DNA of 64,000 nucleotides from Geovibrio ferrireducens (GTDB lineage: Bacteria > Chrysiogenota > Deferribacteres > Deferribacterales > Geovibrionaceae): assembly GCF_026226615.1 (NCBI RefSeq), contig NZ_JAJAPB010000012.1, forward strand, positions 1 through 64,000, given 5' to 3'. The notes beneath the pieces were generated by a model. That model searched no databases. It had not been told where the DNA came from and worked only from the letters and a program-made list of their open reading frames with translations. Below are positions 9,132 to 63,090 of this stretch, piece by piece. Every line of letters begins with the position of its first letter. The first letter of the stretch is position 1. A program made the translations under genes and the position numbers.

Positions 9132-9171
9132 AACAGACAGTATTTTCGGGGATAGCGGCCCCGTTTGCAAG

Positions 9172-9912
9172 CTATTTCACGTCAAAGTTGAAAAAAGTCT
9201 TCGGGAAAGGCTCTTTTTCCAGAGTGTAGTGCCACCACTCTTTTTCATAGTTCACAAAACCGTATTTTTTCATCAGATCGCGCAGGAGCATTCTGTTGGA
9301 AAGCTGCTTCTCCGTTATCGCCTCATTCTCTGTGGCGGAAAGGGGGCTGAAGCAGTCAAAGCCTGTGCCCATGTCTATGCTGTTGTCGCCGAAGCGGTTC
9401 TCAGCACTGTTTTCGCAGCTTCTCTGCTTAATGTGGGGTATATATTCCTCCTGCTCCGGCGCTTCATACGGGATTATGGTGAGATCCACCGTGCTCCCTC
9501 TTGAATGACCCGATTTTGAAGCGATAAAGCCCTTCTTAAACAGGGTGTCCTTTGGTTCGTTGGGGTAAAATTCGGCCTTTGTTTTTGTATCCTTCGCATC
9601 CTTTGACCAGCGCACAAAGTGATCCACAGCCTTCTGCGGTCTGTAGCAGTCATAAACCTTGAGAGAGTAGCCTATCAGTTCAAGATCCTGCTGCACCTTG
9701 TCCAGAGCCTCTGCAGCCTGACGGGTGAGTATACATACGGGGGAGACATAGCCGTCAACCCTTGTTCCCACAAAGTTATGGGATGAGTGGTAGCGTATCT
9801 CCTGTACAACGGAGGAATTAACATCGGAGAGATAAACAAACCCCTTGGGGAGTTCCGCATAAGCCTGTGAAACCAGAGCAAAAACAAAAAGAGCCGTAAA
9901 AAGTTTTTTCAT
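9172..9912 (-). CDS. VanX-like D-alanyl-D-alanine dipeptidase (peptidase M15D), exported
   Basis: This 246-residue protein begins with a signal peptide (MKKLFTALFVFALVSQAYA). The zinc peptidase motifs are all present: SGHSRGSTVDL (His and Asp zinc ligands), EWWHYTL (catalytic Glu and third zinc ligand) and YDCYRP (the conserved Arg that contacts substrate). VanX/DdpX enzymes split D-Ala-D-Ala. There are no vanH or vanA ligase genes nearby, so peptidoglycan fragment use in the periplasm is more likely than vancomycin resistance. It is the first gene of a probable pair with the GAF-PAS histidine kinase. Confidence 0.9.
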   Translation of the reverse strand: MKKLFTALFVFALVSQAYAELPKGFVYLSDVNSSVVQEIRYHSSHNFVGTRVDGYVSPVCILTRQAAEALDKVQQDLELIGYSLKVYDCYRPQKAVDHFVRWSKDAKDTKTKAEFYPNEPKDTLFKKGFIASKSGHSRGSTVDLTIIPYEAPEQEEYIPHIKQRSCENSAENRFGDNSIDMGTGFDCFSPLSATENEAITEKQLSNRMLLRDLMKKYGFVNYEKEWWHYTLEKEPFPKTFFNFDVK

Positions 9913-10075
9913 ATACTGCTACCTCCCCGCTGCGGCATGCGCACGTATCTTTAAAGTATTTCCCATAAAGGCATTATATGTCAACCCATTTGCCTTGTGA
10001 CGGTTTATCCGCATAGGTTCAATAATTTGACTGTATACGGATGAGTTTTTACTGTATTATTTGTATGTAAAGGTT

Positions 10076-13000: not shown

Positions 13001-13150
13001 CTCACCGCATACGGTCTTGAAAGCATAGCCGCAAGGATGGAAAAATGTGCCAATGCTGAGGATATGACCGGGGCAGAGGAATGTTACAACGCCTTTGTGA
13101 AAGAGTTTTATGAGTTTAAAAAAGAAGCTTCGGTCTATACCGGGAAATAA
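10076..13150 (+). CDS. Membrane hybrid sensor histidine kinase with two REC domains and a degenerate HPt
   Basis: This protein of about 1024 residues has a first membrane helix ([18 protein letters not shown]), a periplasmic double-Cache-like sensor of about 290 residues, a second helix ([12 protein letters not shown]), a coiled coil, HisKA with [10 protein letters not shown] (His near residue 400), and HATPase with DTGIGVP and [16 protein letters not shown]1 lacks the phospho-Asp: the usual LLD position reads VVLIA. REC2 is intact ([10 protein letters not shown], Asp near 830). The HPt-like tail reads [10 protein letters not shown], with Tyr in place of the phospho-His. Start choice is open: TTG 10061, ATG 10076, or TTG 10100, which has the best spaced GAGG. 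The degenerate domains suggest phosphotransfer stops at REC2 or goes to a separate HPt protein. Confidence 0.9.
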
Positions 13151-13277
13151 ACGGGCAGTTTCCTTTAATTTATTTTTAAATTTATTTTGCAATAATGATA
13201 TTTTTTATCAGATCCCATGACGATTTGTGCTATTATTAACAATGTAGAAAAAACGTGTGATTAAATGGAGGCGTTCA

Positions 13278-14594
13278 ATGCGCAGTATTCGGGTATTATT
13301 TTTGTGTGCGGTACTTTCGGTATTCTTTATTATCGGCTGCAACAGCGGCAGCAGCTCATCTTCTCCGTCTTCGCAGAAGGGTGTTTTTACGGATGCGCCT
13401 GTTCAGGGGCTTGCTTATTCTGCTGTTCCCAGCGGTCTTTCAGGTTTTACTAATGAAAAGGGTGAGTTCGATTTCCGCGAAGGGGACAATGTAACTTTCA
13501 GAATCGGCAATCTGGTTTTAGGTTCAGTAAAAGCAACGGCATTTGTTACTCCCTTCGACATCGCATCTTACAGTGAGGCGGTGGATATAGCGCGCCTTCT
13601 TCAGAGTGTGGGCAGTGTGAGCGGCGGTGTGATAGTGCTTGGCTCCCAGAGCGAGGCGGCTGTGAACGGAATAGTAAGCGGCGGGATGGACCTCCGGGAT
13701 GCTCTGGATGCACTTGAAACAGGCAACGTAATAACCAAGTCCGCAGAGGATGCCCTTGAGCATATGAACACCCGCTCCATCTACGGTGCATACAACGGTT
13801 ACACTGCTCTTCGCTGCGAGCCCGCAGGTTATAAATCGGTTGACTCCGTTATGGTTTTTGATAAAGGAAAAACCTTCGCATTCAATGTCGGCGGTTATGA
13901 ACCTTTAAATCTTCCGGATTCCGTTTCATCACCTTCTGTAGCTCTGAGGAGATCTGTCGGGGTTTACAGCGGCAAAAGAACCTCTCAGGACTCTTTCAGG
14001 TTTACCAGTCTCATGGGCGAATCAGATCTTATTTATAAAATTTCTGCGAATTCCACTGAGGTTTTCAGCACAAGCATATCATCACCTGATAAAACATGTA
14101 GCGGAACAGGCTTCATGGTGAGAATAGCTGATGCGAAAAACGGCGAGACATGCCCTGTTATGCCTGAAGATGCCGGAAATGTTGAATACGATATAAATAT
14201 TGTGTCTACAAATGTTTACGGCGAGGATGACTATGAAAACATCCCCAGCTATATTGAGCTTGATATGAGCTTAAGCGGCTGCAGCATAACTGCAGTGGGC
14301 CGTTTCATGGTATATGATGAATCGTTGAGTGAGTGGGTAGCTGCTTATGAGAAGAATTTCAAAGGGTATGCGGATATGAGCAAGCAAGGCATATTCATGT
14401 CAGAGGATAGTGACAACGGAAGCTATTCTGTTTTCATGATTGCTGTAAATAGTGATTACACGTACCGCTCTGCTGCGTCTGCACCCATGGCAAAAGTTGA
14501 TCCGTTAACCGGCTACTATTTTGAGTATGCTGAGGATGAGGAAACAGGCGAACCCCAGTGGTCGCTGTATTCAGTTAACATGGGCTACAAATAA
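13278..14594 (+). CDS. Uncharacterised lipoprotein
   Basis: This 438-residue protein starts with a lipoprotein signal ending in the lipobox FIIGC, followed by a Ser/Gly-rich linker (GSSSSSPSS). The start at 13278 is set by GGAGG 6 bases upstream. The first domain (about residues 35-90) has a pattern seen in many secreted lipoproteins: a DAPVQGLAY segment, a GFTNEKGEFDF segment and FRIGNLVLGS, likely a small beta-sandwich. The rest is not recognisable; four Cys residues in the second half could form disulfides. It probably sits on the outer membrane. It has its own strong terminator and no operon partner. Confidence 0.7.
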   Translation: MRSIRVLFLCAVLSVFFIIGCNSGSSSSSPSSQKGVFTDAPVQGLAYSAVPSGLSGFTNEKGEFDFREGDNVTFRIGNLVLGSVKATAFVTPFDIASYSEAVDIARLLQSVGSVSGGVIVLGSQSEAAVNGIVSGGMDLRDALDALETGNVITKSAEDALEHMNTRSIYGAYNGYTALRCEPAGYKSVDSVMVFDKGKTFAFNVGGYEPLNLPDSVSSPSVALRRSVGVYSGKRTSQDSFRFTSLMGESDLIYKISANSTEVFSTSISSPDKTCSGTGFMVRIADAKNGETCPVMPEDAGNVEYDINIVSTNVYGEDDYENIPSYIELDMSLSGCSITAVGRFMVYDESLSEWVAAYEKNFKGYADMSKQGIFMSEDSDNGSYSVFMIAVNSDYTYRSAASAPMAKVDPLTGYYFEYAEDEETGEPQWSLYSVNMGYK

Positions 14595-48599: not shown

Positions 48600-51500
48600 A
48601 TGGACAATCTAGAAAATTCCGCTGCCCGCACAGACTTTGACGGACATATAAACTATCTGGAAAGCATTTGCCTGAACCTCTCCTCCGGGGCTGCCCATGC
48701 CCCTGTCAGCTGGCTTGTTTATGAGAAGGAACACTCCCTCCTCTGTCGGAAAGAGACGGAGAATATTCAGCAGAAAATTATCTCCGTACTTAGGGAGAAA
48801 TACTTCTACCCCGCTGCTCAGGCAGGCAGCATAAACCACGACCTTATCCGCATTGCCGATATGATTTTCAGAAGCGGATTCAAGGTGCAGAAAAACCCTT
48901 CGGACGGAGTTTATTATAAAAAACTGTCCGATGCTTTTTCAGCACTAAAGGACGAAAAACAGCATTACGCCAAACTGAACCTAGCCTTCTGCATGTTCGT
49001 TCTGGACGCGCTGAGGGGTGCAAAAGACGCGAAGTCTGATCTTCTGGAGAGGATCTGCACTCTGAACACAAATACGTTTCTTCCGGAATATAAGTACCTG
49101 AGCGGATTTATGGAGCTTATGCGCTCTCTTTTCACAAGGGAATATATTCTGGATATTTTCATAAACAGAATCTTCAAAGGCAGGTTCTGGAACGGTGATC
49201 TCAAGGCTAAGCAGTCCTGCTTCCTGTGGGTATTTCCAATATTGTGGACATGCTTCGGTATAGAGAGGGAGTTTAAGGCGGTCTACCCCGTTTGGCTGGA
49301 TATTTTCAGAAAAGCCATGCAGAAAAACATGACTGAGCTTGTGTTCTTCATGCACCTGCACCTCTCCCACGTCTATATGAACCTCGCGCACACTCAGGGC
49401 GAATTCAGGCAGTTTAATGAAGATGTGGAGAAACCTTTCAGCAGATATATAACAGACAGAGTAGTGCCCGAATACGGCATAAAACCCTGCACCCGCGGGA
49501 AGAAAACCGACGGCGTGAAAAAAGTCGGCTTTGTTTTTGACCGCATAGTGGGGAGTTCCCCTGTGAAGCTCCTCTATTCTCTCATTGAAAAGCTTAAAAA
49601 AGAGGGGAGTAAAGACGAATACACTGTCTATGACTACGAATGTATAGAGAAAAGTCCGTCCGAACAGAAATATATAATGATGATAACTATGCTGGGCGTG
49701 AAATATGTCAGCGCCCATTCCCTGATACCTGACAGAAGCACAGGCAGTTATTACAGCAGGTTTGAAAAGTGCCGCATTTTCCGTGAAAGGATCATGAATG
49801 ACGGCATTGAGGAACTGATAATGTGCAACAACAGGGAGATATTCAATTTTCTGTTTGCCTGCCGCACCGCGCCGGAGCAGGTTTACTGGTGCCACGGCAA
49901 TTTCGAGTACGATGTGGACGGCATAGACAGGCGCATAACCCATATCGGAACAAATATGCAGGAGAATGAGCTGGGGTTTGAGCGTTTTTCCCTGAAGCAG
50001 AGCGATGTTTTCTTTGCGGAGGAACTGGCTGAGGCGAAGAAGAAGGCGGATGCCGTCAGGAAAAAATTCCCGGAAGGTGCGGTGGTTTTCGGCAGCATAG
50101 GCAGACTTATCAAGCTTGAAGGGGAGGGCTGTCTGGAGACTGTGGCGGAGATTATGCGTGCATGCCCGGATTCTGTTTACGCTGCCTGCGGGGACGGGGG
50201 CACGGATAACATACTGCCGAAGCTGAAAGAATACGGTCTTGAAAAACGGTTTTTCTTTGAAGGGCGGGTGGAACCGCAGGTTTATGCTCATGTTATCGAT
50301 ATTTATCTCAGCACCTTTCCTTCCCCCAGCGGAGAGGCTTTTAACGAGTATGAAAAACTGAATAACGGAGCCGGAGGTGTGGCGCTCAGGGATTTATCCG
50401 GCGGCATAGCCTTCACCGGGGAATATAAATCAAAGGCGGAGGAATACTACCTCCTGCATAAAACATACGGTCGTGAAGCGGTCAGGCAGATATATCGGAT
50501 AAGCGGCGGAAACCGGACTCTGAACGGGGCTTCGGTAATCGTTAAGCGAATAAGGGCAGATGCCGCAGAGTTAAAGGGAAAATACCCGGCGGGGACCGTT
50601 CTATTAGGTCTGAACGGAAGCATAAGCCATGCGGATGAGAGACTAAAAAGCTTTCTGCGGCTGACGGAAAATGCTGTTATTGTGTATAATGACCCTGCCG
50701 ATGCTGAGTATTTCGCATCCTTTGGGGAGAAGGCTGTTCATATGCCGTTCGGCTCAGTTACTGCTTCGGTGCGCGGCCATCTGTTTAACATTGACATGGC
50801 AGGATATGCGGCAGACCCTGCTATGGTGCTTATTAAGCTTCTGCAGTTCTGCTGTGTGCCCGCTCTCTTGCCGACAGTGCGTAAGTTTATCCGTGAAGCG
50901 GATTTCAGCACGGAACAGGCGGAACATACGTATGAATACTGCTTTACCCTGGTACTCGCAGGGCTGTACGATGAGATTAAAGGGATGGGGCATCTTTACG
51001 GAGATCTTTCAGAAACCGGAGGTGTTCCGGCGCTGTTTCTGCGGAATTATCTTCGTTTGGATGAAGGTGCTGAAATAGCAGAAGAGGAGCTTCTGCCCGG
51101 CAGTTTAATGTCAGGGAAAAACATTACGGTACAAAAACTCCGCCCGCTTCTGATGCTGATGTATAAATACCTTGAGCGTGACAAAACTCCCGAAGGCGAC
51201 CGCAGAGCGGTAGGACTGCTGAGGGATATGATGCTGACGGAATACGCAGCCGGAAATCTTGACTCCGCAGGGCTGGATTTCCTGATTCGTGCGCTTATCC
51301 ACAGCGGCAGGGCAGAAGAGGCATCGGACACCCTCGCAAGGGAGACTGCCGCCGGAAATATAAAAAATGAGCAGTATATTGTTTATTCTGCTCTTTTTGT
51401 TTTATACGGTGATTTGAGTGCGGCAAGACAGTTTATTGAGAAAGCGGACACAGGCAGACCTCTGGCATCGCTTTCTCTCCTTCAGGCTGCGTTCGTTAAG

Positions 51501-51773
51501 GTTTTTCTGAAAGATTTTGACTCTGCCCACGCTTTTATGGGTCGGCTTTATGAGAAAGATAAAGAGTTTTTTCTGAATACCAATCTGCCGGCTTTATATT
51601 TTCTTCTTGCGTTGGTTTCCAGAGGCCTTGGGTATCAGGATGCATCACGGATTCGAGATTCTTTCGCCCATCGGGATAATTTTTACGCTTATAAAGAACA
51701 TCTCTGGGATAAGATACCTGTTTCTGAGAATGCTTTTCAGGCTTATCATTTCACCGGAATTTACGATACATAG
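48600..51773 (+). CDS. Large glycosyltransferase-like protein (GT-B fold, possibly HMW1C/GT41-like)
   Basis: This 1057-residue protein has no signal peptide. Residues about 1-290 are helical. The part near 300-650 looks like a GT-B glycosyltransferase: KKVGFVFDRIVGSSPVKLL, QVYWCHGNFEYDVDG, VVFGSIGRLIKLEGEG, FFEGRVEPQVYAHVIDIYLSTFP and SPSGEAF. This order resembles cytoplasmic protein O/N-glycosyltransferases of the HMW1C/OGT group, but the donor motif is not canonical. The last 200 residues are helical repeats (TPR-like). It could glycosylate flagellin or an adhesin in the cytoplasm. The assignment to GT41 is inference; the GT-B reading is moderate. Confidence 0.55.
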   Translation: MDNLENSAARTDFDGHINYLESICLNLSSGAAHAPVSWLVYEKEHSLLCRKETENIQQKIISVLREKYFYPAAQAGSINHDLIRIADMIFRSGFKVQKNPSDGVYYKKLSDAFSALKDEKQHYAKLNLAFCMFVLDALRGAKDAKSDLLERICTLNTNTFLPEYKYLSGFMELMRSLFTREYILDIFINRIFKGRFWNGDLKAKQSCFLWVFPILWTCFGIEREFKAVYPVWLDIFRKAMQKNMTELVFFMHLHLSHVYMNLAHTQGEFRQFNEDVEKPFSRYITDRVVPEYGIKPCTRGKKTDGVKKVGFVFDRIVGSSPVKLLYSLIEKLKKEGSKDEYTVYDYECIEKSPSEQKYIMMITMLGVKYVSAHSLIPDRSTGSYYSRFEKCRIFRERIMNDGIEELIMCNNREIFNFLFACRTAPEQVYWCHGNFEYDVDGIDRRITHIGTNMQENELGFERFSLKQSDVFFAEELAEAKKKADAVRKKFPEGAVVFGSIGRLIKLEGEGCLETVAEIMRACPDSVYAACGDGGTDNILPKLKEYGLEKRFFFEGRVEPQVYAHVIDIYLSTFPSPSGEAFNEYEKLNNGAGGVALRDLSGGIAFTGEYKSKAEEYYLLHKTYGREAVRQIYRISGGNRTLNGASVIVKRIRADAAELKGKYPAGTVLLGLNGSISHADERLKSFLRLTENAVIVYNDPADAEYFASFGEKAVHMPFGSVTASVRGHLFNIDMAGYAADPAMVLIKLLQFCCVPALLPTVRKFIREADFSTEQAEHTYEYCFTLVLAGLYDEIKGMGHLYGDLSETGGVPALFLRNYLRLDEGAEIAEEELLPGSLMSGKNITVQKLRPLLMLMYKYLERDKTPEGDRRAVGLLRDMMLTEYAAGNLDSAGLDFLIRALIHSGRAEEASDTLARETAAGNIKNEQYIVYSALFVLYGDLSAARQFIEKADTGRPLASLSLLQAAFVKVFLKDFDSAHAFMGRLYEKDKEFFLNTNLPALYFLLALVSRGLGYQDASRIRDSFAHRDNFYAYKEHLWDKIPVSENAFQAYHFTGIYDT

Positions 51774-51805: not shown

Positions 51806-53524
51806 TTGAACGGATTCATGGAACTGCTTTTCGGTTCAATGCCTGCAGATTACCGCTGGCTTATGATGCTGAAAGAAGCTGCTGATAAAGAATATTTTGA
51901 CTTTGCCGAGGCTGAGGCCGCAGCGGATAAAATCAATAAAACAGACTCTGAATATAAAAATGCCCTCTCCCGCCTTGCCTATTTTCTGGCACATATCAGA
52001 CAGTACAATGATGCGCTCAGACTTTTTGAAAAAGACAGTGCCTCCGGCAGGCAGACATGGTGGGGAAAACTCCGTCATGCTGAATGTATTGCGCTGAGCG
52101 GTGACGCTGCCACTGCTTCCGCAATAGTTCTGGAAACGTATTCCGAAAATACTGCGGCGGTGAACGGCTTCGGTCATATGGGCTGGTCTCTTCTCCGTGC
52201 GGGGAAAGCTGAACGCGCGGAAGTTATTGAAATTATAAAAAGGGATATTGAACTCGGCCGCATCACAAACGGTTTTAAGCTTGTAGCTGGGCGTATTATT
52301 GCGCCTGTGCAGGCAGACATGGCAGAAAAGCTGATTAACGAGGCATATAGTGCAGATTCCTCTCTGAAAGACGGTTTCTCAATGGCTGCCGCAGAGTTTT
52401 TGCTGATGAAAAATTATGCCGCTGCCCTCATATGGTTTGAAAAGGACGATGCATGCGGCAGAATGTCGCCTGAGCAGAGGCTGAAATATGCTGAACTGCT
52501 TGCCCGTAAGGGCAGAACGGCAGATGCCGAGAAAAATACTGAAACGGCGTACAGTGCAGATTCCTCTCTGAGAGACGGTTATTCTCGGCTGTTCAGGTTT
52601 TCATCAGTGTTTGATACTCCGCGTTATGCGTATCTTCTGGCAGAGGATAAAAGGCGCGGACGCTCCACGGGCATTTATGCTGAGGCTGATGCCGAGAGAC
52701 TGTCAGAAAACTATGGACTGCTTGCTGATATTGAGCGGGCAGAAAAACGGTTCGGAATGTCTGTTGGTTTGCAGTATGCGGCTCTGGAGAAAATGGTTCG
52801 GGAAAATGCCGGGGCGGGTTTCGCTGATGTTCTTGGTTTCAGACTGAAAATTGCCAGTCCTTTCGATGTCCTTGTGCAGTTCAGGGAGATCTTCCTTGAA
52901 GAAAACTACTATTTTACAAGCGAGAAGGAAGCACCTTTCATTATAGACGGCGGTGCGAATGCTGGAATGGCACTTGCCTATTTCAAATGGCTTTATCCCT
53001 CATCTGTTATAACCGCTTTTGAGCCGAACCCCGAACTTTTTGAAATCTGCAAAGAGAATATAGAATCAAACGGGTGGAAGGGCATTACCCTGCATCCTTA
53101 TGCCTTGAGTGATTCCGAAGGAACGGTCCAGTTCACCGTTTACCCGGCCATGCCTATGGGCTCAGGGATAGCAGGGAGGTTCTCAGCCCTTGAGTCCCGT
53201 ACAATAGATGTTCAGACCGTTCGCCTCAGCAGGCACATGAGCGAATACACCGACTTCCTCAAGCTGGATATAGAGGGAGCTGAGGAAGCTGTGTGCAGGG
53301 AAGCGGAGGATAAGCTGATTGAAAACTGCGGAGCAGGCTTCATTGAGTATCATTATGATTCTGAAACGGCAGAGAACAGTTTGGGAAGTATTCTACATCT
53401 TCTCGAAGATAAAGGGTTTGAATATGAAATAAGCGGCAGGCGCATCCGGCGTAAGAATGCCGCTCCTGCTGACAAATGGTCTATGAATATCTTTTTTACA
53501 TCACGGAGAAAGTCGGATGACTGA
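51806..53524 (+). CDS. TPR-like repeat protein with FkbM methyltransferase domain
   Basis: This 572-residue protein has helical TPR/Sel1-like repeats in its first 300 residues, including two near-identical AYSADSSL(K/R)DG units, then an FkbM methyltransferase from about 375: FIIDGGANAGMALAYFKWLYP, ITAFEPNPELFEICKENIE and DFLKLDIEGAEE. FkbM-type enzymes O-methylate sugars in glycans. It probably starts with TTG at 51806 (GGAG 7 bases upstream); ATG 51818 is the alternative. It overlaps the next gene by 8 bases. Confidence 0.8.
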   Translation: MNGFMELLFGSMPADYRWLMMLKEAADKEYFDFAEAEAAADKINKTDSEYKNALSRLAYFLAHIRQYNDALRLFEKDSASGRQTWWGKLRHAECIALSGDAATASAIVLETYSENTAAVNGFGHMGWSLLRAGKAERAEVIEIIKRDIELGRITNGFKLVAGRIIAPVQADMAEKLINEAYSADSSLKDGFSMAAAEFLLMKNYAAALIWFEKDDACGRMSPEQRLKYAELLARKGRTADAEKNTETAYSADSSLRDGYSRLFRFSSVFDTPRYAYLLAEDKRRGRSTGIYAEADAERLSENYGLLADIERAEKRFGMSVGLQYAALEKMVRENAGAGFADVLGFRLKIASPFDVLVQFREIFLEENYYFTSEKEAPFIIDGGANAGMALAYFKWLYPSSVITAFEPNPELFEICKENIESNGWKGITLHPYALSDSEGTVQFTVYPAMPMGSGIAGRFSALESRTIDVQTVRLSRHMSEYTDFLKLDIEGAEEAVCREAEDKLIENCGAGFIEYHYDSETAENSLGSILHLLEDKGFEYEISGRRIRRKNAAPADKWSMNIFFTSRRKSDD

Positions 53525-54134
53525 ACCGAATGATGTAAGGGTGGTGAAACCCGAATTCAGACATTATGCGGAACCGGACAGCAGAGTGCTTGATATTCTG
53601 ATGCTGTCTGTTTCGGAATGGGAGGCTATGCCCTTTTACGCAAGAGTTCATGCTAACGAATTTTACCTTCTTCTGTGTTCGCTTGATATTAAACCCCGCC
53701 ATATTCTGGAATGGGGCAGCGGGTATTCCACCTATCTTTTCAGCTATTTTGCAGGCATATGGGGTACGGAGTATATTCTGAGCATAGACGATAACAAGAA
53801 ATATCAGGATGATATTCTGGAGAAATTAAGGCCCTGCCAGCCTTATCTGGAGGCTTGCAGCATTTCTCAGACAGGGCAGATATGGCCTTGGGATGCTGAG
53901 GAATATAATTATGCAACATTTCCCTTCTCAACAGGTAAAAAATTTGATCTTGTGTTTGTGGACGGAAGAAGGCGGAACGAATGTATGTTTGCGGCCAGCA
54001 GGTGCCTTGCCGAAAAGGGGCTCGTAATCCTGCATGATTCATGGCGGAAACGTTATGAACTCGGAATGAGCCTCTTCAGGAAAATCAATATATTTGATGA
54101 ATACACTGTCATGATGAGCATGGAGGCAAAGTGA
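53517..54134 (+). CDS. Class I SAM-methyltransferase-like protein
   Basis: This 205-residue protein has a Rossmann motif HILEWGSGYSTYLFSYF near residue 62, an acidic strand ILSIDDNKKYQ and FDLVFVDGRRRNECMFAASRCL, the layout of a class I methyltransferase. The catalytic target is unknown. Its ATG lies within the end of the TPR-FkbM gene, with GGAG before it, so the two are coupled. Confidence 0.72.
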   Translation: MTEPNDVRVVKPEFRHYAEPDSRVLDILMLSVSEWEAMPFYARVHANEFYLLLCSLDIKPRHILEWGSGYSTYLFSYFAGIWGTEYILSIDDNKKYQDDILEKLRPCQPYLEACSISQTGQIWPWDAEEYNYATFPFSTGKKFDLVFVDGRRRNECMFAASRCLAEKGLVILHDSWRKRYELGMSLFRKINIFDEYTVMMSMEAK

Positions 54135-55528
54135 AAAAGGTGCTTCTTATAAACTCTTCATTTTCTGTGAGTGAACGCCGTTATTCCTCATTCGGCCCTC
54201 CTTTGGGTATTATCTCTGTTGCATCGGCACTCCGTGAGAGCGGCTATAGGGTTATCTTTGTCGACCCTCAAGTTGAGGAAAATTATGAAGAGATGATCCG
54301 TATTGCTCTTGACGATGAACTGCTGTTTGTCGGTATGTCTGCGTATATGGGGGCAAATCTGAAAAATTGTCTAAAGCTGACGAGGGAAGTAAAGGCTATG
54401 CGTCCAGATTTACCGGTTGTCTGGGGAGGGCCTCTTGCATCGTCTCTTCCTGAGGAATGCTTCAGGAAGGCCGATGTCGATTTTATTGTTATGGGTGCAG
54501 GAGAGGAGACTATTGTTCAGCTTGCGGCCTACCTTGCTGATAAAGAACCGGGTAAAGTTCTGTTCAACCCTTATATATCTTTTAGGAAAGATGAAAATAA
54601 GTATGAAATAGGCCGTCTGTACAGTTTCAATGGAGATATAGAAAATCTTCCGGCAATAGATTTGAGGTTGTGGGAAAAAGGGATCAAGAAAATGAATTCC
54701 ATCCCTTTAATAACCTCAAGAGGCTGTCCCTACAAATGCAGTTTCTGCTATAACACCTTTAATGAAAAAGGGAAATATTTCCTGAGAACAGCTCAGTCAA
54801 TTATTGACGAGATGGACAGCAATTCTGTGAGTTTCTCATGCACGAACTTCAGCTTTATTGATGACAATTTTCTTATAAATGAGAACCGTGCTCTGGATGT
54901 GTTTGCTCATGCTGAGAAAAAAGGATATAGAATACAAAGGGTTTACGGACATTTGAATAACTTTACTCCGAAAATTCAAGAAGCGCTGATAAAAGGGAAA
55001 ATCGGCGTAACTATGTGTATTGAATCAGGTTCCGCTAGAATAAGGAAAATTCTGAATAAACATATAGACACGGACAAAGCCGTTGCACTGATCAGAAATC
55101 TTACTTCAGCCTCTGTACCGTTTGTTACTGCATTTCTCTTTGGTATTCCGGGTGAAGAGTTTGATGATATACGGCAGAGTGTGGGGCTTGCTAAAATCAT
55201 CGATGGAGTTTCAGACGGTAAAGCGGTTTCAATGTTTTATCTTTATGCCCCGCAGCCCAAAGACCGTATTGTTGAGGAATATGAGAGGCAAGGAGTCAAG
55301 CTTGATTTTGCCTTTGAGAATATGTCTGATGTGGAAGTTGTGCCTGTTCCTCCTAATGATATGATAAATCTTCAAATACGCCCGTGGATGACAGGAGATA
55401 TGGCGGAATTCTATAAAAATCTTGCAGAGGTATGGCTTTATCATTTCGGATCTAAGAAAAATAAAGGGAATTATTCTTTGGAAAATGCGTATAAAAATCA
55501 TTCCAAAATAAAAGAATTGTTCTTATGA
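54131..55528 (+). CDS. B12-binding radical SAM protein
   Basis: This 465-residue protein has an N-terminal cobalamin-binding-type domain (FGPPLGIISVASALRESGY, VGMSAYMGANLKN, PVVWGGPLASSLPEE) without the DxHxxG His, as usual for class B radical SAM enzymes. The radical SAM core has SRGCPYKCSFCYN near residue 197 and IDDNFLINENRALD, then a helical C-terminus. Such enzymes often methylate unactivated carbons. GTG start with GGAGG before it, overlapping the previous stop (GTGA). This gene looks more AT-rich than its neighbours. Next to glycosyl and methyl transferases it may methylate a sugar carbon. Confidence 0.85.
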   Translation: MKKVLLINSSFSVSERRYSSFGPPLGIISVASALRESGYRVIFVDPQVEENYEEMIRIALDDELLFVGMSAYMGANLKNCLKLTREVKAMRPDLPVVWGGPLASSLPEECFRKADVDFIVMGAGEETIVQLAAYLADKEPGKVLFNPYISFRKDENKYEIGRLYSFNGDIENLPAIDLRLWEKGIKKMNSIPLITSRGCPYKCSFCYNTFNEKGKYFLRTAQSIIDEMDSNSVSFSCTNFSFIDDNFLINENRALDVFAHAEKKGYRIQRVYGHLNNFTPKIQEALIKGKIGVTMCIESGSARIRKILNKHIDTDKAVALIRNLTSASVPFVTAFLFGIPGEEFDDIRQSVGLAKIIDGVSDGKAVSMFYLYAPQPKDRIVEEYERQGVKLDFAFENMSDVEVVPVPPNDMINLQIRPWMTGDMAEFYKNLAEVWLYHFGSKKNKGNYSLENAYKNHSKIKELFL

Positions 55529-56670
55529 AAATATACTTTGCGGGTAATCAGGTCTGCATGAAACGCGGGCTTGACACGGAACGCTTTAAGAGATACTTCG
55601 CCGCCAACGGATGGACAGAGGCGGAAACAGCGGAGAGTGCTGATGCGGTTATAGCCGTTACATGCGCCTTTGTCTCGTCATATACCGCAACTGCTGTGGG
55701 TATGCTTGAGGAACTCAAAAAACAGGGCAAAAGGCTGATAGTTTACGGCTGTCTGCCGGATATGGCACATGATGAGTTTGAGAAGGTTTTCAGCGGCGAA
55801 TTTTTCAGCACAAAAAATCCGGAAGGGCTAGAAGAGTTTTTCCCTGAATTTACCGTGAAACTCTGTGATGTTCCGGATTCGTTTGAGCCGGATATCAGAG
55901 TTATGAGTCCTTTTGATCCTGATGCGTTGAACCCGGTTGAAGTGCGGAACAATGTAAAATCAAAAAAGCCCGCGCCGATCCTCAGGATAAGCGAAGGGTG
56001 CAATAATTCATGCAGCTACTGCTCCCACCCTATGGCTCTTGGACGCCTGAAAAGCAAGCCCCTTGAGGAATGCGTGAGCGATTATCTGCGCATACTGGAC
56101 TGCGGGCATAAACGGGTAACAATTCATGCAAATGATCCTGCCTCCTACGGAGAGGACATAGGGCTGAGCTATCCCGAACTGCTGAACGCACTGGATAAAG
56201 CTTCCGATGATGAAAGTGTAAAGTGGGGCCTCAATGACGTGCACCCTCGTTATCTGCTGAAATACGGTGCTGAAATCATCCGGTTTATTCAAAAAGGGCG
56301 GGTGGTTCAGATAGGTATTCCATTGCAGTCAGGCAGTCCGGACGTGTTGAGGCGGATGAACAGAGTTTATGATATAGAGAAAGTGACGGAGATGCTTTGC
56401 AGATTGCGAACTGAAAAACCTGAGCTTGTGATTTCAACTCATCTTATCGCTGGTTTTCCCGGTGAAACTGAAGAGGATATTGAACTTACAGCGGATATTT
56501 TCAGGAAAGTAAAAATAGATTCTGCCTTCATTTTCAGATATTCTGCAAATGCGGGCACAAAGGCGGCAGGGCTGACAGGGCAGAACAGACCGGCGGATAT
56601 AGCTGAAAGACAAATGCTTCTGGCTGAAAAAATATCAGCACATGGATGCAAAACAGAGATCTTTTTATAA
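55525..56670 (+). CDS. MiaB/RimO-like radical SAM protein lacking a TRAM domain
   Basis: This 381-residue protein has the three auxiliary-cluster Cys of methylthiotransferases (Cys11, Cys47, Cys76; in NQVCM, VTCAFV and YGCLPD) and the radical SAM motif CNNSCSYC near residue 160, then PMALGRLKSKPLEE and HLIAGFPGETEED. MiaB and RimO end with a TRAM RNA/protein-binding domain of about 60 residues; this one ends at KTEIFL with no TRAM. It overlaps the B12 radical SAM gene by 4 bases. Its setting in a glycan cassette points to an unusual target. Confidence 0.85.
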   Translation: MKIYFAGNQVCMKRGLDTERFKRYFAANGWTEAETAESADAVIAVTCAFVSSYTATAVGMLEELKKQGKRLIVYGCLPDMAHDEFEKVFSGEFFSTKNPEGLEEFFPEFTVKLCDVPDSFEPDIRVMSPFDPDALNPVEVRNNVKSKKPAPILRISEGCNNSCSYCSHPMALGRLKSKPLEECVSDYLRILDCGHKRVTIHANDPASYGEDIGLSYPELLNALDKASDDESVKWGLNDVHPRYLLKYGAEIIRFIQKGRVVQIGIPLQSGSPDVLRRMNRVYDIEKVTEMLCRLRTEKPELVISTHLIAGFPGETEEDIELTADIFRKVKIDSAFIFRYSANAGTKAAGLTGQNRPADIAERQMLLAEKISAHGCKTEIFL

Positions 56671-56767
56671 GGGAATTCATATGAGTAACTCTTCCGGAAT
56701 AAAAAAATGATATTTACGATAGAATAGTTCATTGTTCCATAGAATATATAATAGACTCGTTTCTTAA

Positions 56768-56804
56768 GGCATATATGCCTGAGTGCACCGAGTCGGCACA
56801 ATTT
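56768..56804 (+). terminator. Hairpin pair with short T tract after the MiaB-like gene
   Basis: The palindrome GGCATATATGCC (56768-56779) is followed by GTG-CA-CCG/CGG-CAC (56783-56799) and AATTTT. It could weaken transcription into the next gene, which begins at 56821. The second stem has a 2-base bulge. Confidence 0.45.
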
Positions 56805-56820
56805 TGAGCGGGAGAGAAAA

Positions 56821-57546
56821 ATGTTTAAACGTAACGGTCTTTTATCAGTGCTTACCCATATAAAAAACAAGGGTGTAAATCCTCAGACGATTATAGATGT
56901 GGGAGTTGCCTACGGAACAAACGGACTGTACGGAATCTTTGACTCTGTACGTTATCTTATGGTAGAGCCGCTGGAGGAGTACAAAGGAGTTCTGGATAAA
57001 ATTGCATCTGAATATCCGGCAGTTTACACATTGTCTGCTGCCGGGAGCAGAGAAGGAAGCATTACGATGAATGTGCATCCTGATATGAGCGGCTCATCTG
57101 TTTTGAAGGAGTCTGAGGGAGCTCATGTAGATGGTGTGGAAAGAACCGTTCCGGTGGTGACCTTGGACGGTGAAACTGAAAAATACGGTCTTAAGGGACC
57201 GTTTGTAATAAAGATCGATGTTCAGGGTTTTGAGCTTGAAGTGCTTAAAGGTGCAGAGAAAATTCTTAAAGAGACTGAAATCGTGATTATGGAGGTCTCT
57301 TTATTTCAGTTTTATAAAGAATCGCCAACATTTTTTGATGTGGTCGCATTTATGAATGAAAGAAATTTTTCAGTTTACGATATTTTCGGAGCCACATACA
57401 GGCCTCTGGATGATGCTCTGGGGCAGGTTGATCTTGTTTTTGTTGCAAATGGAAGCGTATTGAGAGAAACACACCATTATGCATCCTTTGAACAACGCAA
57501 AACATTGACCGCCGAAAGAGTAAGGAAACTTAATCCAAATATATAA
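56821..57546 (+). CDS. FkbM-family methyltransferase
   Basis: This 241-residue protein has TIIDVGVAYGTNGLYGIF, MVEPLEEYKG, TLDGETEKYG, FVIKIDVQGFELEVLKGAEKIL and VIMEVSLFQFY, the FkbM pattern. It is likely a sugar or glycan O-methyltransferase. GGGAGAG precedes the ATG. It follows a 150-base gap with hairpins, the largest gap in the first half of the cassette. Confidence 0.87.
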   Translation: MFKRNGLLSVLTHIKNKGVNPQTIIDVGVAYGTNGLYGIFDSVRYLMVEPLEEYKGVLDKIASEYPAVYTLSAAGSREGSITMNVHPDMSGSSVLKESEGAHVDGVERTVPVVTLDGETEKYGLKGPFVIKIDVQGFELEVLKGAEKILKETEIVIMEVSLFQFYKESPTFFDVVAFMNERNFSVYDIFGATYRPLDDALGQVDLVFVANGSVLRETHHYASFEQRKTLTAERVRKLNPNI

Positions 57547-57559
57547 AAAGGTTTGATAT

Positions 57560-58420
57560 ATGGACAGAGCAACAGCATTGATCAGAGAAAAAATTAAGAA
57601 ATGTGACGGCATATATGAAAAGCTCTCCGTTCTCAAGGGAGCATACACCGGAAAAACGGCGTACATTCTGACCTGCGGGCCCTCTTTCGGGAACTACACT
57701 GCTGATTACCTTCGCAAGAGGCTAAAAGACGAACTCGTTGTCTCTGTGAAGCAAACTTATGATACTGTTGGGGATATTGCTGATTTTCATTTGCTAAACT
57801 CATGGAATTATAAAAAATATGACTACGCAGAACCACGCCCAATTTTGCTGGCGGAAAAGCATCCTGTAGACCCGGAGACCCCTTTTTTATTACCTGATCT
57901 TCTTTTCCCCCTGATTAATGCTGGTAGCGATTTGCCTCTTGAAGAAAAACTCCAGAAGAGACTGTGCGTTGCACAGAATTTTGAAGACTACCTGTTTGAA
58001 AAAACAATAAACCGCCCTCTTGGTCCCGGAATTGTCTATGAATTGGGTTTTTATCTGGCTGTCCATTTGGGAGTCAGTAAAATCATCATTGCCGGCTGGG
58101 ACATAGGTATACCTGATTCGCAGATAATGCCCCATTTCTACAAAGAGGGTGAACACCTGATGCTCAATAAACTGCCATCAAATTTACTGAGAAAAGGTAA
58201 GCTCGTGACTTTGCAGCCCGGCGGAAAGAGCATTGTCAGAGATCTGGAAGATTCGGATCTTAAACTGATAAATACTCCCGGTTTTTATGATGATGAAGTG
58301 GAGAAAATTGCGGCCTCAACATCAGCGATGTATAAATGGCTTCTTTCAAAGGGTATTGAGCTTGAAATAGTTTCAGACCGCTCCCTTGCTTCTGATGAAA
58401 TTCCGAGAAGTTTGCTTTAA
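57560..58420 (+). CDS. DUF115/MptE-like or GT42-like protein
   Basis: This 286-residue protein has AYILTCGPSFGNYTADYLRKRL near residue 33 and LVVSVKQTYD, a pattern similar to the GxGPSL nucleotide site of DUF115 (motility accessory factor/MptE-like) proteins and GT42 sialyltransferases, and a later strand VSKIIIAGWDIGIPD. DUF115 proteins take part in flagellin glycosylation with nonulosonic acids. The match is weak beyond this block. AAAGG lies 8 bases before the ATG. Gap to the previous gene is 13 bases. Confidence 0.5.
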   Translation: MDRATALIREKIKKCDGIYEKLSVLKGAYTGKTAYILTCGPSFGNYTADYLRKRLKDELVVSVKQTYDTVGDIADFHLLNSWNYKKYDYAEPRPILLAEKHPVDPETPFLLPDLLFPLINAGSDLPLEEKLQKRLCVAQNFEDYLFEKTINRPLGPGIVYELGFYLAVHLGVSKIIIAGWDIGIPDSQIMPHFYKEGEHLMLNKLPSNLLRKGKLVTLQPGGKSIVRDLEDSDLKLINTPGFYDDEVEKIAASTSAMYKWLLSKGIELEIVSDRSLASDEIPRSLL

Positions 58421-58441: not shown

Positions 58442-59575
58442 ATGACTGACAGCCCCTTTATTTCCGTTCTTATCAACAACTACAACTACGGTCGCTTCAT
58501 CGCTCAGTGCGTGGAGAGCGTACTGAACCAGACTTACGGTAATTTTGAGCTTATAATTGTGGATGACGGTTCAAAAGATGATTCAGTAAGCGTGATAGAT
58601 TCCTTCTCTGATCCGCGCATAATAAAGATATTCAAGGAAAACGGCGGGCAGGCCTCCGCCTTTAACGCAGGTTTTGAGGCATCAAGGGGCGATATAATCG
58701 CCTTCTTAGACAGTGATGACTGGTGGATGCCCCACAAGCTTGAGACAATTGTTAAATGGGACAGGCTGTTGGATGGCAATCATGCTTTCCTTCAGCATAT
58801 GGTGGATGTATGGGAAGACGGAAAAGTTTCTCCGCTATACCCGACACTCTATTCGGGAAATATTCTTAATCATTATATAGAGAAAAGAGAACCTGTGCAT
58901 TTTGTAGGTACATCAGGGCTATGTTTCAGAAGGGAGATTCTGAATAAGGTTATGCCTGTTCCGCAGCAGTTTAGAATCAGCGCAGATGGATTTCTCACCC
59001 GAACTTCTATTGTTTTCGGAAACGTCATCTCTATACCGGAATCTCTGGGCTATTACCGCAAGCATTCAAATGCCGTGTTCGGAAATACAGACCATAACAG
59101 AAATAGTTTCAGAGAAACTATTCTTTTTCCATCACTCAATGAGTTTTACAAAAAAGAGCGTATTGATTATCTATTTGGAGAGCAGATGCTCCCGAAAAGC
59201 ACTGAGGCGGTATTTTTCCTCTCTATTCTGCGGCTCATGCTGAAACTCAGGCTGGATAAAATAACCGAAACCTACCATAGGATTGCAGTATTCGGTGCAG
59301 GGCGTCATACCGAGTGGATCTGTGATTTTCTTCAGGAATACAAAAAAGAGAATGTGACAGCAGTTCTGGATGATAATCCGGATCCTGTAAAAAGATTCTG
59401 GGGTATTCCTGCTGAAAAAGCTGAAAAATGGAACACATCTAACGCTGATGCAATAATCCTTTCGTCCGACTGTAAGCAGGATTTTTTTGCAAAAAGGTGT
59501 AAAGAACTGTATGGGGATGCTCTGCCGTTGATAGATTTATACGATGGTCTGCCCCAAGGGCCATACCCGAAATAA
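58442..59575 (+). CDS. GT2 glycosyltransferase fused to the shared C-terminal 'GAGRHTEW' module
   Basis: This 377-residue protein has a GT2 (GT-A fold) domain with VLINNYNYGRFIAQCVESVL, LIIVDDGSKDDS, FKENGGQASAFNAGF and FLDSDDWW (donor/metal DxD), then from about 278 a Rossmann-like module: IAVFGAGRHTEWI, AVLDDNPD, DAIILSSDCKQD, ALPLIDLYDGLPQGPYPK. The module recurs in the next two genes. The last 32-base run coding for GDALPLIDLYD (59513-59544) is identical to 63028-63059. It could hold a nucleotide or sugar nucleotide, but its role is unknown. It is followed by the 59593 gene at 17 bases. Confidence 0.85.
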   Translation: MTDSPFISVLINNYNYGRFIAQCVESVLNQTYGNFELIIVDDGSKDDSVSVIDSFSDPRIIKIFKENGGQASAFNAGFEASRGDIIAFLDSDDWWMPHKLETIVKWDRLLDGNHAFLQHMVDVWEDGKVSPLYPTLYSGNILNHYIEKREPVHFVGTSGLCFRREILNKVMPVPQQFRISADGFLTRTSIVFGNVISIPESLGYYRKHSNAVFGNTDHNRNSFRETILFPSLNEFYKKERIDYLFGEQMLPKSTEAVFFLSILRLMLKLRLDKITETYHRIAVFGAGRHTEWICDFLQEYKKENVTAVLDDNPDPVKRFWGIPAEKAEKWNTSNADAIILSSDCKQDFFAKRCKELYGDALPLIDLYDGLPQGPYPK

Positions 59576-59592: not shown

Positions 59593-61974
59593 ATGGCAGA
59601 CAAATCGATTTTCAACATAAAAAAACTAAGCCTGCCCATCAGCAGTGACCTCCGTGCGTCTGCGGCTATAGTTCCCTTAATGGAGAAGCATTTCGGCAAT
59701 AAAAAGGTCAGGATACTTGAAATAGGCGTTTTTAAGGCAGGCCTGACCAAGGTATTTGCTGAATCTTCTCTTAATATTGAAGCTTACGATGGTGTTGACC
59801 CGTATCTTGGCTCTAAGGATGATCCTTATACCGGTTTGTACTGGGGAAATGCTTTAGAGGCCGAGTCGGTATATAAAAAAGCAAAAGAATACTACGATAA
59901 CCAAGGATTCAGTCTTCATAGAATGACTTCTTCCGAATATTTTGACAATTTTTTTGGCAAAATGGAATATGATATAATTTATGTTGATGGGGATCATAGT
60001 TTTGAGTATGCGCTTTATGATTTTGAAGAATTTGTTCATATGCTCACGGAAGGTGGTGTTTTCCTTATAGATAACTATGCAAGTGCCGGAACACCGGGAG
60101 TTACAAAAGCAGTAAATGAATTCATCCACAGTTACAGAGATGTGATTGAAAATATAGGCTATTATCTAAACGAGTTTCAGAATCCGGGCAAATATGTTCC
60201 GGTGTCACAGACGACAGTTTACTTAACTGTAAACAAGAATCTGCTTGAATCACAGAAACCCATAAGCTCCAAGCGCTATTATCTATCATCTTTTTTAAGG
60301 GAACTTGCCGTGAATCAAGGCATCAGACGCTTGGCGATATTTGGTGCCGGAAGACACACTGAATGGCTGGCAAGGCTCAGGACATCATCAGTGAGACCTG
60401 ACATCGTCGCAGTGCTGGATGACAATCCTGACGAAACAAAAATGTTTTTCGGAAAAAAACCGATGAAGGCGGATCTTTTCAACCCTTCGGATGCTGATGC
60501 GATTCTGCTTTCAACAGATGTAAACCACACAGTATTCAGGGAAAGATGCATCAGACTTTACGGTGATGCACTGCCGCTGTTAAGTTTATACAATGATTTC
60601 CCTCTGCCTCAGAAGAAGCCTAAGCACCGTCCGGTGGAATACAGCGGTGAGAAAAACATTTCCCCCGTTTTGCCTTCCCTGACAGATTCATGCGCTGAAA
60701 GAATTATTTGGGCAGGTTTTTACAACAGATCATCAGATAAGAATAAATTTATGGAATCAGTTATAGTCCATTCGGACTCATCGCATTACTTATTGCTCAA
60801 CTTAGCATTAAATTCTCCTGATATTGATTTGCCCAATGCTTTTGTTTTTAACGCACCTGAAACTGTGACAAAGTGCACTGAGCGAAGCTCAACGGTGGAT
60901 CTTCCTGAAAACAGGAATATCAGGTATACTCTTGAAACCTATGCTGTACATCTTAAATATACACTCGAAGAGAACCACGACATCAGTTATGAACAGGCGC
61001 TTTCCGCTGTTGGGCAGATGTTCAGCTATACACTGAATATGCTGGAAAGCTATAAACCCGATATAGCAGTTATATGGAATGAGTTTCATCCTCTCTTCAA
61101 AGTAGTGAAACTGGCCTGTGATTTTACCGGTACAAAAACTGTCTATATGGAATTTGGCTGTCTGCCCGGAACTTTTCAGTTTGATATTCAGGGGCAGATG
61201 GGGGAAAGCTGGGTAGCCCTTAACACTGAGGCTTTCAACAGCCTGCATGTAGATGAGGCTGACTGCATAAAAGCAGTTAAGGCTGTTGAATGTATAAAGA
61301 ACACTGAAATGAACCGTGCGAAGCAGCCAAAAAAAGGTAGGCTCGACAGGATGCTTGAAGGGATAGACCAAAAAATAGTTTTTGTCGCTGGTCATAATGA
61401 TTACAGTTCCGGAATATTCCCTTATGACATAGCTGCGTCCACTTTCCATTCCCCGTTTTACCGCAGTTCAGCCCATCTGTTTGAAGATATGGCGCAAAGA
61501 GCGGAGTTGAACGGGTGGTTCATGGTATTTAAGCCACATCCTTATGCCAAAAGTCACCTGCCTGAGTCACTCAGGACTGAGCATTACATCATAGTTGATG
61601 ATGTAAATGTGGAAGAATGTATTGATATTGCAGATGTCACGTTGACTGTTCTGTCGCAGATGTCATATATGGCGCTGACCAGAGGGAAGCCTGTGGTTAT
61701 GACAGGCTATAACCAGCTTAGGGATAAGGGCTGCTGTTACGAGGCATTCAGGGCGGAAGATATTGACAGTGTCATTAACAGCGCCCTGATATACGGTTTT
61801 ACAGATTTAATGAAGGAAAACTGGATAAAACATGCGGCCAGACTTCTGAAGTATTGCCTGTATTCTGATAATGAAGCATTATATGCTCTGCCCTCTGAAA
61901 TATTTGCGAAGAGAATTCAGGCTCTTGCCCGGCATAAAATGACCGATATTGAAATCATTAAACAAGAAATATAA
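59593..61974 (+). CDS. Three-part protein: methyltransferase, GAGRHTEW module, capsule-synthesis-like domain
   Basis: This 793-residue protein begins with a class I methyltransferase of macrocin-O-methyltransferase type (VRILEIGVFKAGLTKVFA near 35, YDGVDPYLGSKDDPYTG, IIYVDGDHSFEYALYDFEEF). The shared module is at about 245-345 (AIFGAGRHTEWLARL, AVLDDNPDETKMFFG, ALPLLSLYNDFPLPQ). From about 350 a third domain has PDIAVIWNEFHPLF, VFVAGHNDYSSGIFPYD, MVFKPHPYAK, DVTLTVLSQMSYMALTRGKPVVMTG, the pattern of Capsule_synth/KpsS-like Kdo-type transferases. The order methyltransferase-module-transferase in one chain suggests linked sugar transfer and capping. Its N-terminal half is closely related to the next gene. 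Confidence 0.82.
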   Translation: MADKSIFNIKKLSLPISSDLRASAAIVPLMEKHFGNKKVRILEIGVFKAGLTKVFAESSLNIEAYDGVDPYLGSKDDPYTGLYWGNALEAESVYKKAKEYYDNQGFSLHRMTSSEYFDNFFGKMEYDIIYVDGDHSFEYALYDFEEFVHMLTEGGVFLIDNYASAGTPGVTKAVNEFIHSYRDVIENIGYYLNEFQNPGKYVPVSQTTVYLTVNKNLLESQKPISSKRYYLSSFLRELAVNQGIRRLAIFGAGRHTEWLARLRTSSVRPDIVAVLDDNPDETKMFFGKKPMKADLFNPSDADAILLSTDVNHTVFRERCIRLYGDALPLLSLYNDFPLPQKKPKHRPVEYSGEKNISPVLPSLTDSCAERIIWAGFYNRSSDKNKFMESVIVHSDSSHYLLLNLALNSPDIDLPNAFVFNAPETVTKCTERSSTVDLPENRNIRYTLETYAVHLKYTLEENHDISYEQALSAVGQMFSYTLNMLESYKPDIAVIWNEFHPLFKVVKLACDFTGTKTVYMEFGCLPGTFQFDIQGQMGESWVALNTEAFNSLHVDEADCIKAVKAVECIKNTEMNRAKQPKKGRLDRMLEGIDQKIVFVAGHNDYSSGIFPYDIAASTFHSPFYRSSAHLFEDMAQRAELNGWFMVFKPHPYAKSHLPESLRTEHYIIVDDVNVEECIDIADVTLTVLSQMSYMALTRGKPVVMTGYNQLRDKGCCYEAFRAEDIDSVINSALIYGFTDLMKENWIKHAARLLKYCLYSDNEALYALPSEIFAKRIQALARHKMTDIEIIKQEI

Positions 61975-62009: not shown

Positions 62010-62066
62010 ATGAATAGCTTCATCTTTGAAAATTCGCCGTTCCTGAAGTTGAATGTATATGTGTGA
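62010..62066 (+). other. 18-codon upstream ORF with strong ribosome site
   Basis: AAGGAG 8 bases before ATG 62010 opens an ORF of 18 codons (MNSFIFENSPFLKLNVYV) whose TGA (62064-62066) overlaps the start of the next gene by 8 bases. The next gene's own ATG has a poor site, so this ORF may act as a coupling leader, or be the stump of a former gene. Confidence 0.5.
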
Positions 62067-63090
62067 TAAATCAATTTTTAATATAGAAGAACTCTGTTCT
62101 CCGTCAAAGCCTTCCGAAGGGGCACGGGCTCCGGCAGGAATAGTCTCAGTGATGGAGAAATACTTCAGAGGAAATGAAGTGCGAATATTGGAAATAGGCG
62201 TTTTTAAGGCAGGGTTGACAAAGCTTTTTGCCAGTTCTTCCCTCAATATAATCAGCTATGACGGTGTTGATCCCTATCTTGGTTCAGATGATGATCCGTA
62301 CACCGGAGCATACTGGGATTCATCATCGGATGCTGATAAAATCTATTTATCTGCAAAGAAATACTACGACAGCAAAGGCTACAGCCTTCACCGGATGACT
62401 TCTGCCGAATATTTTGATTCAGCGTACAAAAGCAAAGAATACGACATCATATACGTGGACGGTGATCACCGGATGTATTATGCCATGCAGGATATGGAAG
62501 AATACATTCATCTGTTGGCAGAAAACGGGATTATGCTTGTGGATGATTATGGTAATGTGGATACTCCCGAAGTTACTCATGCGCTGAACAGGTTTATAGA
62601 CAACCGCAGAGACGTAATAAAGGAAATAGGTTATTACATCAGCCCTTTTCAGAATGTTGGCAAATATATACCCGTTTCACAGACAACAGTTTACTTCACT
62701 GCGGATAAAGGCAGACTTAATAGCGGCTTTGTGTCCAAACGCTATAATGTTTCCGAAGCTCTGAAAAAGCTGGTGAATGAGGACGGGATAAAAAGGATAG
62801 CACTGTTCGGTGCCGGCAGACATACCGAATGGATGAATGATGTGTTTGGAAAACTGAATATGCCGTGTATTGCAGCGGTTTTGGACGATTATCCTGATAA
62901 AACGAAGAACTTCTGGGGGCTTACTCCGGTGAAGGCTTCTGAGTGGGACACCACACAGGCGGATGCTATAATTCTTTCGTCCGACTGCAAGCAGGAAATG
63001 ATGCGTAAAAGATGCAGGGAACTTTTCGGGGATGCTCTGCCGTTGATAGATTTATACGAAGGTCTGCCAACAGGACCTTACCCGAAATGA
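62059..63090 (+). CDS. Methyltransferase fused to the GAGRHTEW module
   Basis: This 343-residue protein matches the first 350 residues of the 59593 protein: CDKSIFNIEEL, VRILEIGVFKAGLTKLFA, VDPYLGSDDDPYTG, IIYVDGDHRMYYAMQDMEEY, then IALFGAGRHTEWMNDV, AVLDDYPDKTKNFWG, ADAIILSSDCKQEMM and LPLIDLYEGLPTGPYPK. The start at 62059 (MCDKSIF) is chosen by alignment with the paralogue (MADKSIF); ATG 62053 is in frame. A 23-base run (62191-62213) is identical to 59719-59741, showing recent duplication or gene conversion. It lacks the capsule-synthesis-like third domain. Confidence 0.85.
   Translation: MCDKSIFNIEELCSPSKPSEGARAPAGIVSVMEKYFRGNEVRILEIGVFKAGLTKLFASSSLNIISYDGVDPYLGSDDDPYTGAYWDSSSDADKIYLSAKKYYDSKGYSLHRMTSAEYFDSAYKSKEYDIIYVDGDHRMYYAMQDMEEYIHLLAENGIMLVDDYGNVDTPEVTHALNRFIDNRRDVIKEIGYYISPFQNVGKYIPVSQTTVYFTADKGRLNSGFVSKRYNVSEALKKLVNEDGIKRIALFGAGRHTEWMNDVFGKLNMPCIAAVLDDYPDKTKNFWGLTPVKASEWDTTQADAIILSSDCKQEMMRKRCRELFGDALPLIDLYEGLPTGPYPK

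Follow-up and report, generated by a model that had tools for sequence, protein, structure and literature searches.

A methylthiotransferase-family radical SAM gene without a TRAM domain in a modular glycan locus of Geovibrio ferrireducens

Genes of the glycan locus

The window analysed here is a stretch of 64,000 nucleotides from the genome of Geovibrio ferrireducens (G000). The genes that matter for what follows are these:

48600-51773, + strand: 1057-residue protein without a Pfam match, by eye apparently a TPR/HMW1C-like cytosolic glycosyltransferase
51806-53524, + strand: TPR and FkbM methyltransferase
53517-54134, + strand: small class I methyltransferase-like protein lying upstream of the pair, below the Pfam cut-off
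54131-55528, + strand: P0001, B12-binding radical SAM enzyme (GTG start, 465 residues)
55525-56670, + strand: P0002, TRAM-less methylthiotransferase-family radical SAM enzyme (ATG start, 381 residues)
56684-56810, + strand: relic of a deleted gene, whose ends match an intact gene of G049
56821-57546, + strand: FkbM-family methyltransferase of the locus core (98% identity in G002, 85% in G049, 63% in G007)
57560-58420, + strand: Maf/MptE-like protein (weak PF01973 match; 99% in G002)
58442-59575, + strand: family 2 glycosyltransferase with a C-terminal PglD_N-like domain

P0001 and P0002 are flanked on both sides by glycosyltransferase, FkbM methyltransferase and Maf/MptE-like genes, and the sugar enzymes that the earlier note saw on either side of the pair are indeed present. 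The 1057-residue protein anchors equivalent loci in G002, G003, G007, G009 and G049, and P0002 occupies the same glycan locus in G000 and its congener G002, the two species that carry it. The flagellin genes are on other contigs than this locus.

Several unrelated proteins share the C-terminal PglD_N-like segment (FGAGRHTEW...). It is found in the window at 58442-59575, 59593-61974 and 62053-63090 and again at L076:15420-17408, and its carriers include a radical SAM fusion in G049. At L070:2343-3017, a CTP_transf_3 cytidylyltransferase gene adjoins SIS isomerase, GFO/IDH-like, 2-hydroxyacid dehydrogenase and inositol-phosphatase-like genes, a group that probably represents a pathway for a CMP-activated sugar.

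A fourth methylthiotransferase-family paralogue

In Pfam profile searches, P0002 matches the N-terminal domain of methylthiotransferases (UPF0004, 1.5e-10) and the Radical_SAM domain (4e-21). The scores, 41.4 bits for PF00919 against a cut-off of 27 and 76.4 bits for PF04055, place it in the MiaB/RimO superfamily (TIGR00089). As the earlier note had stated, all six cluster cysteines are kept: C11, C47 and C76 for the auxiliary cluster and C159, C163 and C166 (CxxxCxxC) for the radical SAM cluster. They are invariant across an alignment of 30 sequences, and nearly all other family-invariant residues are kept as well. Near the auxiliary cluster, a few nearly invariant residues are changed: G10, N14 and N45 are lost, and R172 is replaced by L.

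The C-terminal TRAM domain that TIGR00089 members carry, reported missing in the earlier note, is truly absent. No match appeared even at E 0.5, although this null is insufficient alone since the genome's own MtaB also lacks a Pfam TRAM match. It is the length that decides: the end of P0002 at residue 381 (KTEIFL) aligns with the first residues past the radical SAM linker, where the TRAM segment starts, whereas canonical relatives extend 46 to 83 residues further, mostly about 60. No TRAM could be recovered downstream of P0002 in any frame, the intergenic stretch there being what is left of another gene. The missing domain explains part of the gap between the 208.5 bits scored by P0002 and the curated TIGR00089 subfamily cut-off of 251. 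Against the equivalog models for MiaB, MtaB, RimO and e-MtaB, the protein reaches 157 to 195 bits, below cut-offs of 315 to 357.

An AlphaFold2 model of P0002 has a mean pLDDT of 83.6, with values below 50 only at residues 128-147. The predicted fold aligns with the structures of MtaB, MiaB and RimO over 345 to 349 residues (Z 33-35). After the methylthiotransferases and MgmA, the best structural match to the model is AprD4 (Z 23.3, 15% identity), and B12 radical SAM enzymes align with a Z of about 20.

P0002 is the fourth UPF0004 protein of its genome. The earlier note had raised the question of whether a normal miaB exists elsewhere; it does, together with rimO and mtaB, and MiaB (498 bits), RimO (416) and MtaB (374) each score above the NCBIfam equivalog cut-off. 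In both a quick tree of 60 rows and a careful one of 38, MiaB, MtaB and RimO each form starred clades that exclude P0002, which supports a position outside these three bacterial clades and not within a known tRNA clade. Neither of the two findings that the earlier note had named as refutations was thus made. The stem that bears P0002 and its orthologue is about 3 changes per site long. In the careful tree, RimO is the group closest to them (support 88/80, not starred), and the data do not reject joining P0002 to MtaB, MiaB or e-MtaB (p-AU 0.46, 0.38 and 0.46); e-MtaB is represented by a single row, so that membership in it is weakly tested by phylogeny. Because the genome has normal miaB, rimO and mtaB genes and P0002 lies outside their clades, P0002 is a family member that has been recruited from translation into the glycan locus.

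Among about 400 genomes (51 of the phylum and 385 relatives, the two sets overlapping), the only orthologue of P0002 is that of the congener G002, which is 96% identical, has the same ending and is likewise TRAM-less. None was found in the third congener, G001, or in 17 genomes of another phylum. Comparison of the two orthologues gives a dN of 0.021 and a dS of 0.088, hence a dN/dS of about 0.23, which indicates moderate purifying selection, the estimate coming from only 39 nucleotide differences. Viral contigs yielded no relatives of P0002, and plasmids only distant matches of 27-31% identity, MiaB or RimO where annotated. The matches on genome contigs are canonical methylthiotransferases with a tail of about 60 residues, apart from L036 and L050, which are cut by contig ends, and L068, which is partial.

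Gene exchange in the island

The gene upstream of P0002, P0001, encodes a protein with a B12-binding domain (5e-24; PF02310, 84.9 bits) and a Radical_SAM domain (7e-18; PF04055, 65.7 bits), with the CxxxCxxC motif at positions 199, 203 and 206; no DxHxxG motif was seen in its sequence. It falls far under the cut-offs of the B12 radical SAM families ApyD, PhpK, TIGR04295 and HpnJ, the best score being 96.5 bits where 750 are needed. Such enzymes are not all methylases, since non-methylases such as OxsB and BchE also belong among them. The sole orthologue found, with 53% identity, is in G049, a genome of another class. The congeners G001 and G002 have none, G002 lacking any homologue at E 1e-20, and no relatives were found in viral contigs. 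P0001 would be a separate decorating enzyme, gained independently, catalyzing C-methylation or another radical rearrangement, and not an obligate partner of P0002.

The modifying genes that occupy the slot ahead of the FkbM core differ between G000, G002, G007 and G049; those of G007 are sugar genes and one for a class I methyltransferase. When G000 and G002 are compared at the nucleotide level, most of the upstream stretch is 73-90% identical. Immediately ahead of the swapped gene (53501-54100), the value climbs to 95-97%; identity disappears across the B12 gene, and from 55524 to about 58900 it is 90-100%, mostly 96-100%. Such a profile is what one would expect from recombination around a replaced gene. 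A further gap, at about 69100-69700, corresponds to another radical SAM gene missing in G002; this gene is L070:4895-6127 and lies a short way beyond the window, at contig positions 68895-70127.

Loci of this kind often contain radical SAM genes. The G000 locus has at least four, L070:4895-6127 and L070:7215-8315 among them, and three were recognized by eye in G009. The equivalent locus of G009 (L093), which belongs to another genus of the family, carries its three SPASM-like radical SAM genes at 8804-9952, 12643-13509 and 13509-14438; it also contains a split transketolase, again by eye.

Deletion has left its mark as well. The first 42 bp or so of the relic downstream of P0002 (86% identity) and its last 79 bp or so (89%) match the two ends of a 339-residue gene, L077:3391-4410, which is intact at the equivalent place in G049. 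This gene contains the sequence FTVGSCFARR and is GSCFA-like by eye. The FkbM protein at 56821-57546 and its counterpart at L077:4423-5157 are 85% identical between different classes, far more than most other shared genes, and a horizontal transfer of the FkbM gene is therefore likely. The locus is a modular protein- or surface-glycan island with exchangeable decorating enzymes.

Possible chemistry and known relatives

We take P0002 to be a diverged fourth paralogue of the MiaB/RimO family that serves as one of these exchangeable enzymes and likely keeps the family chemistry on a substrate made by the locus, a reading held with slightly less than even confidence. More tentatively, the TRAM-less enzyme may equip a surface sugar or glycoprotein with sulfur, as SCH3, which would make it the first member of its family to act outside the ribosome and tRNA. 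The most likely activity is radical C-S chemistry that targets a sugar or glycoprotein and needs no contribution from the B12 enzyme.

In known methylthiotransferases, one SAM molecule methylates the sulfur of the auxiliary cluster and a second yields the 5'-deoxyadenosyl radical (PMC10702137). P0002 would likewise bind two [4Fe-4S] clusters. A sulfide or persulfide bound to the auxiliary cluster would receive a methyl group from a first SAM, and the radical made from a second would abstract hydrogen from a C-H group of the substrate, leading to a C-SCH3 (or C-S) bond. Such chemistry is possible because both cysteine triads are kept. The TRAM domain is not what distinguishes i6A from t6A tRNA (PMC10702137), so that an enzyme without it could retain activity towards a smaller substrate. 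Judging from the gene context in two species, the glycan locus would itself produce the substrate, which may be a nucleotide sugar, a glycan intermediate or a glycosylated surface protein.

The altered residues near the auxiliary cluster could mean that the sulfur step has changed or been lost, and catalytic drift is possible given that the stem is very long and the two known orthologues come from a single genus. P0002 might then carry out some other radical reaction on a sugar, such as a dehydration, an epimerisation or an oxidation, in the manner of AprD4, its best structural match after the methylthiotransferases and MgmA; the glycan setting would suit this. It is nevertheless unlikely, since all three auxiliary-cluster cysteines are kept and P0002 is clearly closer to methylthiotransferases in both sequence and structure.

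A protein substrate fits as well as a sugar does. P0002 could methylthiolate a protein or peptide, for instance the beta-carbon of an Asp or another residue of a surface protein. RimO offers the precedent of a substrate other than tRNA (PMC10702137), the best tree weakly sets P0002 beside it, and the anchor protein of the locus resembles a protein glycosyltransferase. The p-AU values above leave the RimO placement unproven, however, and no precursor peptide was seen; we consider a RimO-like action on protein rather improbable.

The earlier note had suggested that P0001 may methylate a sugar carbon, with P0002 then inserting sulfur into, or adding SCH3 to, that sugar. In favour of such a dedicated two-step pathway, both enzymes are radical SAM proteins of one operon, and their genes do overlap by 4 bases (54131-55528 and 55525-56670, ATGA), as had been noted. 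The overlap carries little weight because neighbouring genes overlap too, by 4 to 8 bases, at the 51806/53517 and 53517/54131 junctions. G002, moreover, has the P0002 orthologue without the B12 enzyme, its slot being held by a 496-residue TPR/class I SAM methyltransferase. Conversely, the large anchor protein also precedes the B12 orthologue of G049, where the next gene in line, likewise overlapping by 4 bases, encodes a different radical SAM partner, a 662-residue SPASM fusion, and no such methylthiotransferase is adjacent. Among the roughly 400 genomes, the pair occurs only in that of the window. Thus, the pair is not conserved and P0001 is an interchangeable neighbour of P0002; the proposed succession of steps is not borne out, and we regard it as quite improbable.

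Very unlikely, too, is that P0002 is a TRAM-less methylthiotransferase for tRNA (or S12), redundant with the normal ones. It belongs to the right family, and discrimination between i6A and t6A needs no TRAM, but the genome has its own MiaB, MtaB and RimO, whose clades exclude P0002, the gene is part of a glycan locus in G000 and G002 alike, and a TRAM search for a small stand-alone protein acting in trans gave only MiaB and two other ORFs, of 337 and 393 residues. That P0002 is a truncated, decaying gene, as its stop at the first TRAM strand, its long branch and the deletion scar directly after it might suggest, is hardly credible in view of the identical ending in two species, the dN/dS, the intact invariant cysteines, the absence of frameshifts and the start codon of the relic gene, which lies after the P0002 stop codon, so that the deletion left P0002 uncut and did not cause its loss of TRAM.

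On the preferred reading, a conserved TRAM-less methylthiotransferase in a glycan island, with three normal paralogues in the genome, provides a small, testable case of an enzyme family reaching a new substrate; it may also represent an enzymatic way of making sulfur-bearing glycans. The locus is, in addition, an example of a glycosylation island that gains and loses radical SAM enzymes of several families. A literature search, with most subscription papers outside its scope, found no description of TRAM-less methylthiotransferases, of methylthiotransferases in RiPP or natural-product loci, or of radical SAM enzymes in flagellin glycosylation that matches this case. Glycans that contain sulfur are not without precedent, since mycobacterial lipoarabinomannan, a surface glycan, carries the methylthio sugar 5-methylthio-xylofuranose (PMC6258851). 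The source of this sugar is probably methylthioadenosine salvage and not a methylthiotransferase.

Among known enzymes, P0001 shares its architecture, a B12-binding domain together with radical SAM, with ApyD, PhpK, TIGR04295 (B12_rSAM_oligo) and HpnJ, but it lies far below the cut-off of each. MiaB, MtaB, e-MtaB and RimO have the UPF0004 and radical SAM domains, the two cysteine triads and the fold of P0002, which differs from them in having no TRAM, in scoring under every curated cut-off and in residing in a glycan locus; the only substrates described for methylthiotransferases are tRNA A37 and ribosomal protein S12 (PMC10702137). RimO, weakly nearest to P0002 in one tree, retains its TRAM, and the genome's own RimO is encoded elsewhere. 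AprD4 (PDB 6fd2), a diol dehydratase, is a weaker structural match but a related two-domain radical SAM enzyme of similar shape, and it acts on an aminosugar, paromamine.
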